Shown one piece after another: positions 5,582 through 43,164 of a stretch of 64,000 nucleotides of DNA. The DNA is from Pseudobythopirellula maris (lineage in GTDB: Bacteria > Planctomycetota > Planctomycetia > Pirellulales > Lacipirellulaceae). The translations under genes were made by a program, and so were the position numbers. The DNA lies in the NCBI RefSeq assembly GCF_007859945.1, contig NZ_SJPQ01000006.1, positions 1 through 64,000 of the forward strand, read 5' to 3'. How positions within the stretch are numbered: the first letter of the stretch is position 1; each line of letters begins with the position of its first letter. Below the pieces are notes generated by a model. It was not told the origin of the DNA. It was given only the letters and a program-made list of their open reading frames with translations, and did no database searches.

Positions 5582-6568
5582 TCAGTCCTGCACGACCTCG
5601 CCGCCGGCGATCGTGCTCATGGCGCCGAGCCAGGACCACTCCTCCGGGAAAACGCCGCCGTCGCCGATGTCTTCGGCGCCGTTCGGGTTCAGGCCGATCG
5701 CTCGGGCGGAGTTGTTGGTCGAGAGCGTTTGGGTGTGGCCGTCGAGGAAGACAAACTGAGCCACGCCCGGGTGGAGGCTGCCGAACATGTCGTTGTCGTC
5801 GTCCCACGGCGTGACGGCCAGGCCGTCCTCGGTGCCGCGGAGGATCGCCATGATGTTGTCGGCCGCCAGGAAGCAGGTGTCGCCTTGCTTGAAATGGCCC
5901 AGCCGTCCGTCGTCGGCGTCGAGCGGCGGAATGTGCCGCTCGCCGATCGCCAGGGTCTTCGAAAGGCCGTCGGTGACCTGACGCCCTTTGATCCGCGAGC
6001 CGCTGAAGATCGGCCCGACCTGGGTGTGGTCGAGCTTGCCCTCGAAGAACTCGGAGTCCTCCATGTTGGTGTCCTCCTCGAAGCCGGCGTTGGCGGCGTA
6101 GTCGCCCGCCACGGCGACGCCCTCGACCAATGGCTCGGCGTCGTCGTTGTCGAAGTTCCGGTCGGCCGAGGCGGGCCGGCGGCTCGGGCAGGTGTAGACC
6201 CCGATCGGCGTGCGCATCGCCACGGCGTTCTCCTCGGCGTCGACGCGGTAGTTGTCGTCGTAGGCGTCGTAGATGTTCTGCAGCTCCATGTAGGGCAGCA
6301 GGCGGTACGACCACGCCACGCCCATCGGGCCGAGCGCGTTGCGTCCCTCGGGGAAGTAGCCGTAGGTGTCGTGGTGCGTCTGAACCGCGAGGCCCATCTG
6401 CTTGAGGTTGTTCGTGCACTCGGCCCGCCGGGCCGACTCGCGGGCGGCCTGCACCGCCGGCAAGAGCAGCGCTACCAGCACGCCGATAATGGCGATCACC
6501 ACGAGCAATTCGACGAGCGTGAAACCTTGCGGGCGACGGGGAGCGCGATCTGTTGTGCGGTGGGACAT
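5582..6568 (-). CDS. DUF1559 pseudopilin-like protein
   Basis: This 328-residue protein has a type IV pilin-like leader with the cleavage/methylation motif GFTLVELLVVIAIIGVLVA near residues 15-35. A long periplasmic domain of the DUF1559 (SBP_bac_10) family follows. The planctomycete signature H-X9-DG is present (HPGVAQFVFLDG, near residues 267-278). Such proteins occur in many copies in planctomycetes and are presumed to be exported and assembled by type II/IV-pilus-like machinery; their exact role is unknown. ATG 6568 is preferred over GTG 6571. It is monocistronic, and the single copy stands apart from other pilin genes. Confidence 0.93.
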   Translation of the reverse strand: MSHRTTDRAPRRPQGFTLVELLVVIAIIGVLVALLLPAVQAARESARRAECTNNLKQMGLAVQTHHDTYGYFPEGRNALGPMGVAWSYRLLPYMELQNIYDAYDDNYRVDAEENAVAMRTPIGVYTCPSRRPASADRNFDNDDAEPLVEGVAVAGDYAANAGFEEDTNMEDSEFFEGKLDHTQVGPIFSGSRIKGRQVTDGLSKTLAIGERHIPPLDADDGRLGHFKQGDTCFLAADNIMAILRGTEDGLAVTPWDDDNDMFGSLHPGVAQFVFLDGHTQTLSTNNSARAIGLNPNGAEDIGDGGVFPEEWSWLGAMSTIAGGEVVQD

Positions 6569-28878: not shown

Positions 28879-29721
28879 ATGACACCGAAGCAAAAGGCCC
28901 TGCTAGTGATCGCCGTGGTGGCGACGCCCTTGTTGCTTGGGCTAGTCTCTGGCGCAACTTATCATTGGGCGCAATCCTACTTAACCGTAGCGTTCCTAAT
29001 CGCGAATCTTCCCCTCACCACCGCCGGGACGTTGCTGTCGGTTTACGTAGGCCTCGGCCACGGACTCGTGCTGCAACGGCTGGTTATCGCCTTTGGCGCG
29101 ATGCTCGTTCTGACGCTAGGATCCCTGCTTGGTTTCGATATGTCGTTCGAATTCTCCGAATTCGGGGCGTCGGTGGTGTGGGCTCGATTGTCGGAACTAT
29201 GCAGGAAGCCCTGGGCGATGAACGAGGCAATCACCGGCGGCATGCTTTTCCTCTGCCGTCCGTGGGCGGGGGTGATCACACGTTGCGAAGAGACGCCCGA
29301 CCCGAACGAAACCCGGCTGCGAGTGTTTGACTTAATGACCGCCACGGTGGTCGCCGCCCTCTTACTCGCCTGGCGTCAGATGGGTCTTCCCAAGGGCGTG
29401 CTCTCCACCGAACCGAGTCAATTCTTCCTCACCTTGCCATACTTCCTATTCCTTGCGGCCCAAGCGCTCGGCGTGGCATTGCTGGGATTGTCCGAGCGTC
29501 GACTCGTAGGGGCCGCGATAGCGACGGGCGGTCTGCTGGGCTCTCAGATATTCATTATGTATTCCCAGCACTCCGCAGGGCTCTCATGGTCACCGCTAGA
29601 ATACCTCCCGCAGCCGCTCACCTTGGTGCTTGCGATCGCCGCGATCTGGTTCGTTAGGCGTTTGGGCTGGCGGCTGCGGCTGCCGGAAAAAGACGTGCTC
29701 GAAGAATCTGTGGCTGCATAA
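28879..29721 (+). CDS. Multi-helix membrane protein, paralogue of 30575-31447
   Basis: ATG 28879 gives 280 residues with about seven hydrophobic segments. It is clearly homologous to the product of 30575-31447: both have PWxMNxAxTGG near the middle, a RLRVFDLMTATVVAALLLAW-type motif and the C-terminal GWRLRLPE. A TAGAAT ends 7 nt before the start codon with no ribosome-binding site between, so the mRNA may be leaderless or nearly so. The family is not recognised; the topology suggests an integral inner-membrane protein. Likely origin is tandem duplication within this region. Confidence 0.65.
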   Translation: MTPKQKALLVIAVVATPLLLGLVSGATYHWAQSYLTVAFLIANLPLTTAGTLLSVYVGLGHGLVLQRLVIAFGAMLVLTLGSLLGFDMSFEFSEFGASVVWARLSELCRKPWAMNEAITGGMLFLCRPWAGVITRCEETPDPNETRLRVFDLMTATVVAALLLAWRQMGLPKGVLSTEPSQFFLTLPYFLFLAAQALGVALLGLSERRLVGAAIATGGLLGSQIFIMYSQHSAGLSWSPLEYLPQPLTLVLAIAAIWFVRRLGWRLRLPEKDVLEESVAA

Positions 29722-29861
29722 TCCTGCCGCAACTCATCTGATCTCGCAACCACAGCCGCCTACGCGGTCCCCCTGAATAGCGATGAACCGGGCAGCAAAA
29801 CTCACCTGCCAGGGAACCGAGCCAATCGTCGTGTCGTCTCAACACGATGCGATCGGTGGCC

Positions 29862-30437
29862 ATGAAAACGAACGTCGCCGACGCCCTCACGATGCTCGCG
29901 CTGAGCGTCGTGTTCGCGGTGGTCAGCTGGCCGCCGCCTCTCTTCCCGGACGATGTCCCGAACTGTGTCTCCGCGAGGTGGGACTGCCGCTTCTTCGCTG
30001 TCGGCTGTTTGTCGAACCATCGGTTGAGCAGCCTGTTCATCACCACCCAGCACCTCGAACCGGGCCGCGCCGTCTGGGACGAACGAGTTGACGGCAACAT
30101 GTGCGGATTTCATGTGCCGCCCTCCTCGCACCCGATGCGTGAACCGAGCGGTTTCAATCTGCTTGTGGGAACGAGCGGCGTCGCATGGAGCTGCCCCTAC
30201 GCGATGTTCATCGCGTACTGGGGCGCCTTGGCCGTTATTCTCGTCCGGCGCCAGGGGCTCACCGTTTTTGACCTGCTGGTCACAACCGCCGCGACCGCCC
30301 TGGCGTTCTCTCTGATCGCGCTGCGATGCGCCCTGCCTGGCGTCGTCGCCCTCAATTTGATTAGTTTCGTAGCGATGCCGTGGAGCCTGTATTCGTTGGC
30401 GCGCCGTGCCGGCCGTGCGGCTGGGCCAAGCGAGTAA
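29862..30437 (+). CDS. Membrane protein of unknown function with a shared DLL-T motif
   Basis: ATG 29862 (MKTNVADALTML) gives 191 residues; ATG 29847 in the same frame is also possible. A hydrophobic N-terminal segment (to about residue 25) precedes a polar, Cys- and Pro-rich region of about 90 residues. Two or three membrane helices follow near the C-terminus. The segment RQGLTVFDLLVTTAATALAF matches the motif of both neighbouring paralogues but the rest does not align. It lies between them on the same strand with gaps of about 125-140 nt. No known family is evident. Confidence 0.55.
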   Translation: MKTNVADALTMLALSVVFAVVSWPPPLFPDDVPNCVSARWDCRFFAVGCLSNHRLSSLFITTQHLEPGRAVWDERVDGNMCGFHVPPSSHPMREPSGFNLLVGTSGVAWSCPYAMFIAYWGALAVILVRRQGLTVFDLLVTTAATALAFSLIALRCALPGVVALNLISFVAMPWSLYSLARRAGRAAGPSE

Positions 30438-30574
30438 TAGGGGACATGCTACCGAAGCACCTTATCAACCGATCGAGCTTGAACCGGGGGGCAGAAGCGG
30501 AAAGAAAGGTGTAAAGTACGGCGCCGCCGACTCTAAGCATCGTCTCGTGTTCCACGCCCAACCCTCCGCGTTTC

Positions 30575-31447
30575 ATGACGAAGAGCCAATCCCGCCAATT
30601 GCTGGTTCTGCTGGCCGCAGCCGTTCCGCTGCTGCTCGGGGCGATCGCCGGAACAGTGCAGCGGCTGGCGCCGCAACAGCTGGGCGACCTGTCCCCCTAC
30701 GCCCGCCTGCCGATCGCCGCCCTCGGCCCGATGCTGACGGTCTATGTCGGCCTTGGCCGCGGACGGGCGCCGCTGAGGCTGCTCTTGGCGGCTGCTGTGC
30801 TGCTTATGGCGCCTCTCTGTTTCTCAGCAGGTCTCGAGGTCATTCGAAACTCTTTCGATTATTGGATTTTTACACTCCAAGGCCGGCTGCCAAACATCTT
30901 CCTCAGTCCGTGGGGAATGAACCAAGCCCTCACCGGTGGCTTGCTGATTCTCTTCCGGCCATGGTTCGGGGTAGTCGCCTTCGGCGAAGAGTCGCCCGAG
31001 CCGCGTGAGGTCGGCCTGCGGACGGTCGACCTACTGACCGCCTCGGCGGTTGCCGCGGTCCTTCTCTCCTGGCAGCAGGCCGCCATGCAATCCGGTGCGT
31101 TTACCATCGGATTAAGCCAGCTCCTGCTGATCGGTGCGCCGTACTACCTTTTCCAGTTCGCTGTGGCGCTCGGCGCCGCATTAGCGGCTTTCTCTTTCGA
31201 GTGGCGGCTTGCTGGGGCCGCGCTTTGCGTTGCCGGCATGCTGGGCTCAGTGGCGATCATAGCCATGCAAATGGGCTGGGCGAATCTCCCCCTGCTGAGG
31301 CTCGAATTCTATCTCAACCAATTGGCGCCGCTGCTTGCGATCGCCCTGCTCTGCCTCATACGAGGCTTGGGCTGGCGGCTGCGGCTGCCGGAGGGCGCCT
31401 GCTCTGTACCGGCAGGCGACGAGGGCGCCGGAGCACCGATCGCCTAG
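30575..31447 (+). CDS. Multi-helix membrane protein, paralogue of 28879-29721
   Basis: ATG 30575 (MTKSQSRQLLVLL) gives 290 residues with about seven hydrophobic segments. Matches to its paralogue include TVYVGLGRG (SVYVGLGHG), PWGMNQALTGG, a GLRTVDLLTASAVAAVLLSW-type segment and GLGWRLRLPE near the end. Its codon use is more G+C-rich than the paralogue's, so the copies have diverged or have different ages. The polar C-terminal tail is short. Function is unknown. Confidence 0.65.
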   Translation: MTKSQSRQLLVLLAAAVPLLLGAIAGTVQRLAPQQLGDLSPYARLPIAALGPMLTVYVGLGRGRAPLRLLLAAAVLLMAPLCFSAGLEVIRNSFDYWIFTLQGRLPNIFLSPWGMNQALTGGLLILFRPWFGVVAFGEESPEPREVGLRTVDLLTASAVAAVLLSWQQAAMQSGAFTIGLSQLLLIGAPYYLFQFAVALGAALAAFSFEWRLAGAALCVAGMLGSVAIIAMQMGWANLPLLRLEFYLNQLAPLLAIALLCLIRGLGWRLRLPEGACSVPAGDEGAGAPIA

Positions 31448-31810: not shown

Positions 31811-33274
31811 CTAGCACACCGTCCGGCGCCGCGTCGCCAGGAGGCACGCCGTCGCCGTCCAAGCAGCCACGAGGGCCGAGGGCTCGGGGACCGCCAGCGC
31901 GACGCTCGCACCGCGCGCGACGCCGAAGTTCGCGACCCACAGGTCGTAGTCCGAGGCGTCGTAGATCACTCCGAGGCCGTCGCGCCAGACCGTGAAGTCG
32001 GCGGCGTCGACCACGTCGTCGAAATTAAAGTCGCCCGCCAGGCTGGCCAGTCCGGCGACGCGCGTCGGGCGGTAGATATCGACATGCAGGTGGTTCAGGT
32101 GAACGCCCGAGGAGTCGAACACGGCGGTCCCCGGGGCGAAGGCGTTGATGCCGTCCAGGATGTCGTCGTTCGAGGTGAGGATCCGCGAGACCGACCCGCG
32201 GTAGTCGTTGCGTTCGCGGCCCGCCTGGATGAAGGCGATCGCGTGGTCGATCACCTTCTGCTCCTCGGCGTCGACCACCCCGTTGCCGTAGTCCCACGTC
32301 GAGCTGTCGACGTGCAGGTCGATGTCCATGCCCACGCGGTGCGTGCTGTGGGCGCCGGCCGAGCCGTAGCCGTCGTCGGTCGACATCGCGTTCATCAGCT
32401 GCGTGCGGCCGGTGTCGGCCTTGGCCGCGACGGCGCCGGCGGTGAACAGGTCGATCGCCCAGTCGGTCCCGAACCGCTCGCTCTGCGGCGTGAGGCCGCT
32501 CCGCACGCCGGTGCCCGGGTCGCGGGCGGGCAAGATATCGAAGTCGCCGATCATCCTCGCTACCGAGAACGAGCCGGGAGTCTGCGGGTCGGGGTCGACG
32601 AGCTCCACCCACGCCGGCGCGTTAACGGCGTTCAGCCAGCCGGCCGTGTTGGGGCCGATGATCCCGTCGACGTTCGCCTGGGTCGTGTTCACCCCGGCCG
32701 TGAACGCCGCCTGAAACGTGCGCAGCGCCTCGTCGGTCCCGTCGTCGAACACGCCGTCAACGCCGAGCGCCGAGCCGCCGTCTTCGACGTACCCGAGGTA
32801 ACGGAGCCGCTGCTGTTGCTGCGCGACGTACAACGGGTTGTTCGTGCGGCCGAGCCCCTCGAGACTCTGGCCGACCGACCCGGCGCCTGCGCCGGTCGAG
32901 CCGGGCCGAACGTTCACCTCGAACGTGGTCGCGACGCCGTTGATCTTCAGGCTGCCGCTCACCACGCCCTGGTAGCCGCGCGTCGCCGGGTCGGCGTCGC
33001 TCGACGCGTCCGGGTTGGGCGCCAGCCAGAAACGGCCGTCGCTCGCGAAGTCGCCCTGCGACAGGTCGCTGCTGGTGAGCGCCTCGTGCCGCTCGCGGCG
33101 GCCAAGCACCACGAGATCGGAGAACGTCGCCCCCGGCGCCACGCCGGGCAGCGAGCCGAGGTCGATCTCGATCGCGTCGCCCGAACGACCATAGAAATCA
33201 AAGTCGGCGGCGTAGCCTTGCGCCGCGAGCAAGACGCACGCGAGCGGGCGAAGGATCATCCAAGAAGTTTTCAT
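31811..33274 (-). CDS. Secreted murein-peptidase-like protein with peptidoglycan-binding, dockerin-like and PEP-CTERM regions
   Basis: ATG 33274 starts a signal peptide (to about residue 22, GYA-AD) and a 487-residue protein. A beta-rich region is followed by a PG_binding_1-like segment near 150-210 (QQRLRYLGYVEDG, GVDGVFDDGT). Residues about 245-400 resemble LAS-type metallopeptidases (M15/M74): THRVGMDIDLHVD and HLNHLHVDIY supply the zinc-binding His/Asp pattern. A dockerin-like repeat (DFNFDDVVDAADFTVW) and a PEP-CTERM tail (VPEPSAL, helix, TRRR) close it. It probably cleaves peptide cross-links at the cell envelope; the bond is unknown. Confidence 0.75.
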   Translation of the reverse strand: MKTSWMILRPLACVLLAAQGYAADFDFYGRSGDAIEIDLGSLPGVAPGATFSDLVVLGRRERHEALTSSDLSQGDFASDGRFWLAPNPDASSDADPATRGYQGVVSGSLKINGVATTFEVNVRPGSTGAGAGSVGQSLEGLGRTNNPLYVAQQQQRLRYLGYVEDGGSALGVDGVFDDGTDEALRTFQAAFTAGVNTTQANVDGIIGPNTAGWLNAVNAPAWVELVDPDPQTPGSFSVARMIGDFDILPARDPGTGVRSGLTPQSERFGTDWAIDLFTAGAVAAKADTGRTQLMNAMSTDDGYGSAGAHSTHRVGMDIDLHVDSSTWDYGNGVVDAEEQKVIDHAIAFIQAGRERNDYRGSVSRILTSNDDILDGINAFAPGTAVFDSSGVHLNHLHVDIYRPTRVAGLASLAGDFNFDDVVDAADFTVWRDGLGVIYDASDYDLWVANFGVARGASVALAVPEPSALVAAWTATACLLATRRRTVC

Positions 33275-33469
33275 CGTGCGGCCGCAGCGTTGGGGAGGAA
33301 ACCCCCAGTATAAACCATTCCCCCCACGCCGTGACCGGCGAGCCGTGCGGGCCACCGCGACTCGCCGCCGCTATTGCAACGCCCAAGGCTCCAAGCTGGC
33401 GCCAATGCTCGAGCCGAAGAAGCTATATCGCCGCCGCGGCGTTGAACCCAAGACCGATGGACCCGGCGC

Positions 33470-35034: not shown

Positions 35035-35703
35035 TCACCGGCTCTCGGCAGGACGCCGCAGCTGATACGTCGTGATCGAACCCGCCTTGCCGGCCCCCCC
35101 CGGGATGCTCTTCAGGTCCTCCGTGGTGTCCTCGAAGCTCGCGGGGCGGCTCCAACCACTCGCATGCATCACCTTCAACCGGTCGCCCTCCCAGGCGTAG
35201 ATGCCGTGGTCCGATCCGCGCGCTGAGATGAAATCGATGTGGCGGGGCGTGGCGCGCGGGTCGACCCGGAATTCGCCGAGATTGAAATCAACCACGATCG
35301 GCTCGCCGTTGAGCTCCAGGGGCCGCCCCTCGTGATCGACCATCACCCAACGCCCCGCGATCCGGCCCGTCTCGCGTGCGACATACGCCCGCCGATAAGC
35401 GTCCCAGCCCAGCAAAACCGCCAGCAGGGTCGTCAGGACCAGCATGTGGACAAGGCGGAAGCGAAACCACCGCAGGCCAACCAGGCCCCGCGCCCGCCGG
35501 CCCGCGCCGCGCAGCACGCGCGGCAAACGCAACCGCATCGCGTCGAACACGACCGGCCCCACGGCTATCAGAGCGAGCAGGGCCGCCCCAGCCACGAGCG
35601 AGCTCTCGACCCGAAAGCCCAGCCGCAAGAGCGCAAGGGCAAGCAGCTCGCCCAGGAGGACGGCGAAGACCAACCGCGACGCGTGTGATTGGGCTGCTGG
35701 CAT
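35035..35703 (-). CDS. Membrane-anchored TIGR03067-domain protein
   Basis: ATG 35703 gives 222 residues. Two hydrophobic segments (about 8-28 and 33-55) are followed by a basic loop and a third helix after the motif FRFRLVHMLVLTTLLAVLLGW. From about 115 the sequence matches the planctomycete TIGR03067 domain: GRWVMVDHEGRPLELNG, RHIDFISARG, GIYAWEGDRLKV and RPASFE. The domain is a small lipocalin-like beta structure of unknown function. Usually it follows a plain signal peptide; here it hangs from a three-helix membrane anchor. The stop lies 18 nt from the end of the convergent relic. Confidence 0.75.
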   Translation of the reverse strand: MPAAQSHASRLVFAVLLGELLALALLRLGFRVESSLVAGAALLALIAVGPVVFDAMRLRLPRVLRGAGRRARGLVGLRWFRFRLVHMLVLTTLLAVLLGWDAYRRAYVARETGRIAGRWVMVDHEGRPLELNGEPIVVDFNLGEFRVDPRATPRHIDFISARGSDHGIYAWEGDRLKVMHASGWSRPASFEDTTEDLKSIPGGAGKAGSITTYQLRRPAESR

Positions 35704-42517: not shown

Positions 42518-42904
42518 TCACCAACCGAGCCGCGTCACGCCCTCCAAGCCGTCGAAGTGCCGCTCATCACGGCTGGCGATCGGCAGGCCGTGCTGCCGGG
42601 CGAGGGAGGCGATCCAGAGGTCGTTCTCGGGAATCGGCCGGCCGCGGAGCTTGAGCTCGTGGCGGAGGGTGGCGTACTCTTTGGCAGTCTCAAGGTCGGC
42701 AGCGAGGATGATCGACTGGGACTTGAGCTGTACGAAAAACGGCTCGATCGATTTCCTCAGACGCGACCCTAGCAAGCCGAATTGGTACTCGCCGATCACA
42801 TGGATCGGCAAATAGGGCCTGCCGTGCAGCCGAACCAAGCTGAGCAGTGCGTCGTCTTTATCGACGGCGGCAGAGACCGCGTTTGTGTCGAGGATCACTC
42901 CCAT
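42518..42904 (-). CDS. vapC: VapC-type toxin, PIN-domain ribonuclease
   Basis: The 128-residue PIN domain starts MGVILDTNAVSAAV with the first acidic residue at Asp6. It continues with Glu in VIGEYQFG, near 39, and Asp residues in ENDLWIASLARQHG and IASRDERHF. These form the Mg2+ site that cuts tRNA or other RNA. It overlaps the antitoxin gene by 10 nt, the usual coupling of type II modules. Growth arrest would follow if the antitoxin is lost. Confidence 0.9.
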   Translation of the reverse strand: MGVILDTNAVSAAVDKDDALLSLVRLHGRPYLPIHVIGEYQFGLLGSRLRKSIEPFFVQLKSQSIILAADLETAKEYATLRHELKLRGRPIPENDLWIASLARQHGLPIASRDERHFDGLEGVTRLGW

Positions 42905-43164
42905 CCCTCGGGATCGACACGCGAGAATTCCTCATCGACGATGGCTTGGACTTCGGCGACAGCTTTTGGATCGGCTTTGCCGAAGCTGTTCCACCAAGCC
43001 AGCGCCTCAGCTTCCTTCATCGCGGCGTCCCCGGCAGCTGCGGATTGCTCGATATTGCATTGGGCCGCCATCAGAATGAACTGTTCGACACTAACGCCGT
43101 GCGCAGCGCTCGCGGCAGCGATCTGTGGGTAGAGCTCATCGGGAATATCGACGGTGGTCTTCAT
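42895..43164 (-). CDS. vapB: VapB-type antitoxin with ribbon-helix-helix N-terminus
   Basis: This 89-residue protein begins MKTTVDIPDELYPQIAAAS, typical of ribbon-helix-helix DNA-binding antitoxins. A C-terminal acidic helix ending SRVDPEGWE would wrap around the toxin. It is the first gene of the module and probably represses it together with VapC. The stop codon lies inside the vapC start region (ATGGGAGTGA). It begins 39 nt after the ClC gene stop on the same strand, so read-through is possible. Confidence 0.85.
   Translation of the reverse strand: MKTTVDIPDELYPQIAAASAAHGVSVEQFILMAAQCNIEQSAAAGDAAMKEAEALAWWNSFGKADPKAVAEVQAIVDEEFSRVDPEGWE

Follow-up and report, generated by a model that had tools for sequence, protein, structure and literature searches.

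Membrane protein genes at the locus

The window, meaning the whole stretch of DNA analyzed here, is 64,000 nucleotides of the Pseudobythopirellula maris genome. It contains three genes, all open frames on one strand, whose predicted membrane protein products we call P1, P2 and P3, and a gene on the opposite strand for a TIGR03067-like protein. All four products carry a copy of a short segment that we call the module.

28879-29721, plus strand: P1, polytopic membrane protein of 280 residues, paralogue of P3, C-terminal tail RRLGWRLRLPE
29305-29388, plus strand: module copy of P1 (profile match), Arg at position -1 and Asp at position 5
29847-30437, plus strand: P2, membrane protein of 196 residues, homologue L134
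30246-30329, plus strand: module copy of P2 (profile match), Gly at -1 and Asp at 5
30575-31447, plus strand: P3, polytopic membrane protein of 290 residues, paralogue of P1, tail IRGLGWRLRLPE
31004-31087, plus strand: module copy of P3 (full-profile match), Gly at -1 and Asp at 5, the weakest of the four
35035-35703, minus strand: TIGR03067-like protein of 222 residues, with two predicted helices, the module helix and a beta-rich C-terminal part
35389-35472, minus strand: module copy of the TIGR03067-like protein (profile match), Arg at -1 and His at 5

P1 and P3 align over 252 residues with 40% identity (E = 6e-38), in agreement with an earlier note on this DNA, made from the sequence alone, that had called them paralogues. 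The same note held that the gene between them shares only a motif with its neighbors, and P2 indeed has little but the segment in common with them: its alignment to P1 is weak (E = 0.16) and begins inside the module segment, and no alignment to P3 was found. None of the three proteins had a match above the curated cut-offs of Pfam or NCBIfam, and PADLOC gave 0 matches. The possibility that P1 and P3 belong to an already named family, which the earlier note had raised against its own proposal, was rejected, there being no match above threshold in Pfam, NCBIfam, PADLOC or the PDB.

No convincing relatives of P1 and P3 were found among 248 genomes of the class and 59 relatives. Two matches were taken as chance, one in genome G120 (1.6e-3), where the list of open reading frames holds no recognizable relative, and one in G271 (0.02). 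P1 had no match to one protein of a tandem cluster in G067, a genome of the window's family. P2 has a homologue in G094, also of this family, with 38% identity over 165 aligned positions and the segment at the aligned place. The earlier note had called this cluster the best candidate in the window for an undescribed system. With P1 and P3 lacking a convincing relative in 248 class genomes, P2 having one, and nothing found but the helix to tie the carriers together, this is not supported; the window holds four carriers of the module and no separate system.

P1 and P3 end in a G[YW]RL-type tail after the last helix (window 29650-29721 and 31360-31447), as do the members of another tandem carrier pair, on contig C3 (L036 from 18847; L162 5976-6830). 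Among 92 multi-helix proteins of the sampled genome, the tail was seen in 3, each of them a carrier. A relationship between P1/P3 and the C3 pair was considered and rejected: BLASTP found nothing and a profile comparison aligned the module only (probability 0.2), with L036 entering as 313 codons without the tail, so that a weak relation may have escaped. Other genes of the window were recorded in passing. Near P3, the protein of 31811-33355 (minus strand) contains a peptidoglycan-binding domain (2.9e-7) and matches a murein endopeptidase weakly; two small genes at 42521-43164 (minus strand) resemble, by eye, an antitoxin and PIN-domain toxin pair; and the product of 5585-6568 (minus strand), matched by N_methyl and SBP_bac_10, is a prepilin-like DUF1559 protein of the canonical kind.

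Recurrence of the module across genomes

As first written, the shared motif (L-x3-[DH][LM]-x3-T-x3-A) occurs at the level of chance, in 2 of 873 sampled genes (a sample that includes the window) against a shuffle mean of 1.8. The motif grew clear from relatives, namely the tandem cluster in G067, with RFEIRHLLIATAWVA-type segments, and L051, an LRR-like protein of the window's own genome with the segment GFVLLDLLELTTLVALTLGW. Inside the G067 cluster, a transposase-like frame was also seen by eye (L081 12291-13094). Because the regular expressions 'med' and 'relaxed' were devised with the window already in view, profiles were preferred to them. The first profile had 8 rows and the later one, made after segment collection, 38; the module spans 26 columns. 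At a permissive E <= 1, the 8-row profile matched 187 of 198 class genomes and lets in prepilins, for example L133 and L142.

A 28-column profile made without sequences of this genome matched P1 with 20.9 bits, P2 with 18.5 bits and the TIGR03067-like protein with 26.9 bits; the last of these, in which the earlier note had seen a similar arginine-rich motif, carries the same segment. P3 stayed under 9 bits with this profile and was matched by the full one (E = 0.004). With the 28-column profile, reversed proteins gave 0 matches, and none of 10 block-shuffled proteomes had more than one protein reaching 10 bits. The test was not fully blind, because the seeds used to recruit other segments included some from the window.

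Searched at E <= 1e-4 against 248 class genomes, the 38-row profile gave at least 142 matches (inspected in part) in at least 52 genomes. The family to which the window belongs accounts for 45 of these matches, the rest of its order for 42 and a further family of the class, f15, for 55. Each of the 12 genomes drawn from the window's own family had a match, and none of the genomes matched belonged to f16 or f17. The reversed module profile had 0 matches at E <= 1e-4 and one at E <= 0.01 in the same genomes. The module thus recurs, and does so beyond what membrane-helix composition alone would give, a limit that the earlier note had itself set. One part of the earlier description has to be changed, in that the supposed amphipathic stretch before a helix is predicted to be the start and core of the membrane helix itself.

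In a phylum-wide search at E <= 1e-4, at least 4 of 246 genomes matched, three of them from this order. Among 27 phylum loci outside the order (L176-L202), 18 have prepilin starts and 3 are prepilin-like with another residue at -1; five are neither or have no readable segment, and L185 (1323-2183, module-like segment RFSMRHLLLFVFIVALG), whose genome does not belong to the class, has the look of a genuine module. At least 9 of 199 genomes from the phylum of an Acidobacteria locus matched at E <= 0.01 and at least 1 at 1e-4 (28-residue frame), and a search of 13 more genomes yielded a single match (0.003), which lies in a Planctomycetota genome. RF[STC]LRTLL, searched as an exact DNA pattern, occurs at 13 loci in genome contigs, two of them titled Planctomycetota; the pattern uses GC-rich codons only and near genomes may have been left out, so it says little on spread.

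These searches bear on the simplest reading, in which the segment is a generic signal anchor or first helix whose columns reflect membrane physics together with a lineage's residue preference (basic flank, interfacial Phe, Leu-rich core). RF[ST]LRTLL followed by a hydrophobic stretch occurs outside planctomycetes too, at several of the 13 loci, which suggests that the first half of the module is a common way into the membrane, and the chance level of the short motif alone points in the same direction. Against this reading, the reversed profile and the block-shuffled proteomes stay nearly empty, 0 of the 13 pattern loci pair a Thr in column 13 with an Ala in column 17, and the E <= 1e-4 matches in the phylum and in the other phylum are few. 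We consider a generic helix rather unlikely.

Carriers of the module

From 91 segment keys, removal of 8 flagged as prepilin-like and of L192 left 82 segments in 79 proteins. Genes of the sampled stretches are script calls, and helices were counted with a plain hydropathy window. Once the module had been masked, the 79 carriers fell into 37 clusters by single linkage (E < 1e-4), which is an upper figure for the sample because more sensitive methods may merge some of them. The view of the segment as a short conserved element in otherwise unrelated proteins is upheld by this result.

One cluster consists of 15 related tandem proteins in G031 with an N-terminal module (L153 3723-18900, L154 377-1331), and both members scanned are ankyrin proteins. 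A cluster of nine includes LRR proteins, with matches in 2 of the 3 members scanned and none in L160, and a cluster of seven (L125, L126, L127, L130, L136, L143, L171) is a family whose N-terminus is acidic (DDDFEYEVEPVD...) and whose members hold one module helix or two. Other carriers include polytopic proteins, a TIGR03067-like protein, one protein with weak WD40 matches only and one DUF1559 protein, L151. No Pfam model scored above its cut-off over the module in any of 28 carriers scanned, and no NCBIfam model did so in 14; a few sub-threshold matches overlap it. A C-terminal stretch like RPWLxVxPDPP is common to the small carriers L209, L138, L150, L224 and L229.

Conserved columns, charge and predicted structure

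Counted after the 8 prepilin-like of the 91 had been removed, the 82 segments have Arg at position -1 in 64 cases, Gln in 10, Gly in 5 and His, Asn or Thr in 1 each, and at position 5 Thr in 23, Asp in 22, His in 11, Gly in 8, Gln in 7 and Glu in 1; both Gly(-1) and Glu(5) are rare in part through the way the set was made, F-x-x-x-E-type segments having been removed during collection, but the four window copies follow the same trend. Asp stands at position 5 in 5/5 segments with Gly(-1), against Asp or Glu in 18 of the other 77 (Fisher p = 0.0012), an association of five segments only, two of which, P2 and P3, come from this window. Thr is found at position 10 in 46 of 68 segments. Small residues (G, A, S, T, C) occupy column 17 in 81 of the 82 (99%), a count that is high because of the seeds, column 14 in 82%, column 21 in 65 (79%) and column 13 in 57 (70%). 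Small-residue spacing of this kind is typical of helix packing.

The mean net charge is +1.9 before the helix and +0.3 after it, the flank before being the more positive in 56 of 82 segments and the less positive in 15 (p = 6e-8). Under the positive-inside rule, the more basic flank of a membrane helix is the cytoplasmic side, and from charge alone we infer an N-in orientation for the module helix. A single-sequence structure model of the TIGR03067-like protein (mean pLDDT 60.1) has two helices, a long helix (71-115) holding the module and then strands, with a block pLDDT of 80-88 for residues 81-100. The P3 model was unusable (mean pLDDT 39.7).

The small-residue columns, together with the tandem arrangement of carriers, seen in G067 and G031 as well as in this window, make a targeting or partner-binding role, as the earlier note had suggested, plausible. 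In the strongest form of this idea, the module would be a dedicated partner-binding element, and a planctomycete machine or common subunit would recognize the helix and gather unrelated proteins. That 37 clusters retain the same columns would suit such a reading, as would the packing residues and the tandem genes. No partner gene is known, however, and duplication of neighboring genes explains the clusters of related carriers, so we regard a dedicated partner-binding module as unlikely.

Resemblance to the prepilin N-terminal helix

Judged by sequence, the nearest known counterpart of the module is the prepilin N-terminal helix, mostly without Gly at -1 and Glu at 5. A profile from which the Gly(-1) members and the DUF1559 member had been excluded was used to rank a set of 1,781 proteins, free of carriers, from four sampled genomes, and prepilins, of which 23 were present, took 18 of the top 20 places (AUC 0.978). 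When all helix columns were permuted (40 runs), the AUC fell to 0.57, with at most 1 prepilin in the top 20; permuting the helix core alone gave 0.71 and at most 2, and permuting the five head columns alone gave 0.92, with a mean of 2.3 in the top 20 and 18 in one run. Because 18 DUF1559-type prepilins are nearly one sequence, the ranking was redone by prepilin type, using 77 distinct segments with the Gly(-1) members (including the DUF1559 member) left out. Three of six prepilin types ranked 1-2 among the non-prepilins, a result equaled by 0 of 150 permutations, and the other three ranked 45, 262 and 541. The N_methyl model (PF07963) had no match at E <= 1 in 28 carriers. Many module copies sit at internal positions, and no signal of the prepilin type would be expected there. 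Some two dozen residues are too few to tell descent from the prepilin helix apart from convergence on it.

For one carrier, its gene family gives a further indication. At G031:C11, paralogous DUF1559 genes stand in tandem. In the first, the start is canonical, GFTLVELLVVIAIIGIL, and N_methyl matches (1.9e-10) immediately ahead of the domain; the second has the intermediate start GYSLRMLFAAIFLIGVL, for which a 48-residue piece was scanned and gave no N_methyl match; and the third, L151, has the module-type start GFTIRDLLMLTFFVAAL and a DUF1559 match of 3e-39. L151 scored 17.9 bits with a module profile that excluded it, the next DUF1559 protein scoring 9.7, and the second and third paralogues are 55% identical. 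Tandem paralogues with three types of start indicate that, within a single family, one position can hold a helix of the prepilin type or of the module type, which supports a descent of the L151 module copy from a prepilin helix, a conclusion that would hold for L151 and not for all copies.

Prepilin peptidase needs Gly, or sometimes Ala, at -1. In the sampled prepilins, at least 5 of 23 have Ala for Gly at this position (L090 18785, L074 16948, L007 10728, L023 11598, L067 5831). The module carriers with Gly(-1) and Asp(5), which are P2, P3, L051, L151 and L146, could retain a still-active prepilin-type signal that is cut by the peptidase. The unbroken pairing of the two residues and the adjacency of L151 to a canonical DUF1559 protein are in favor of this reading. 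Yet Glu(5) is absent from these carriers, and the segments of P2, P3 and L051 come after earlier predicted helices, which makes them unlikely leaders; an active signal thus seems very unlikely.

A proposed membrane-entry helix

The explanation that we favor, and to which we give about an even chance, is that the module serves as a prepilin-like entry helix, oriented N-in and left uncleaved, one face of which packs through small residues. The segment would be a membrane-entry helix that either shares ancestry with the prepilin N-terminal helix or has come to resemble it by convergence, and in which the peptidase site is mostly missing, usually with Arg for Gly at -1 and with Thr, Asp or His for Glu at 5. 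It would enter the inner membrane from the basic cytoplasmic side and stay uncut. As a first helix, the module would anchor extracytoplasmic domains (ankyrin, LRR, DUF1559), and as an internal helix it would start a new membrane pass, as in the polytopic P1, P2 and P3. The small residues of columns 13/14, 17 and 21 would make up one packing face, through which the module probably associates with further helices, perhaps ones from carriers whose genes are adjacent. The observations beneath this picture are the recurrence of the segment, the specificity of its sequence, its likeness to prepilins, the basic flank on its N-terminal side and the columns of small residues. The copies may also share a common descent.

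A bolder extension holds that in planctomycetes a prepilin helix became a general uncleaved module on dozens of unrelated proteins, internal helices included, and that a dedicated partner, perhaps derived from a type II secretion or type IV pilus platform, gathers the carriers. We would call this improbable as a whole. A short helix that recurs in unrelated proteins would represent either a sorting or assembly code or the repeated re-use of a prepilin helix. A bridge between the very large DUF1559 prepilin-like families of planctomycetes and ordinary membrane proteins could serve as a handle on both, and the module labels orphan membrane proteins that have no family model.

Comparison with known systems

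In the part of the open PubMed Central literature reached by segment strings, planctomycete membrane motifs and DUF1559, no description of the module was found. The 35035-35703 protein matches the second half of the model of TIGR03067, a planctomycete domain (31 bits, 2.3e-7, profile positions 51-107 only); the match is under the curated cut-off of 40.15, and the module lies outside it. Planc_extracel (PF07595), another export motif, for which PMC8567305 cites Studholme et al. 2004, is likewise a short planctomycete segment heading many proteins. Its consensus, RRLxxExLExRxLLA, is unlike that of the module, and the model had no match at E <= 1 in 28 carriers.

The DUF1559/SBP_bac_10 family (PF07596, TIGR04294) is large, with 76-172 matches to one member per genome in six genomes, and PMC8567305 counts 100 proteins with N_methyl in Tuwongella immobilis and 91 with both N_methyl and SBP_bac_10. 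The carrier L151 is a member, with a TIGR04294 score of 21.9 bits (cut-off 19) beside its Pfam match, whereas its N-terminal helix is of the module type and the other 27 Pfam-scanned carriers had no DUF1559 match.

The closest comparison is with the helix of type IV prepilins and pseudopilins. N_methyl prepilins differ from the module in the residues that surround the cleavage site, since, with prepilin-like segments removed, Gly(-1) is present in 5 of 82 module segments and Glu(5) in 1, and in the lack of N_methyl matches among the carriers; module copies, moreover, are often internal and usually have Thr at position 10. The resemblance, which the rankings bear out for three of the six prepilin types, lies in an interfacial Phe, Ser/Thr, Ile/Leu, a polar position 5 and Leu-Leu/Met in that order, followed by a hydrophobic core whose position 14 is small, all next to a basic flank.
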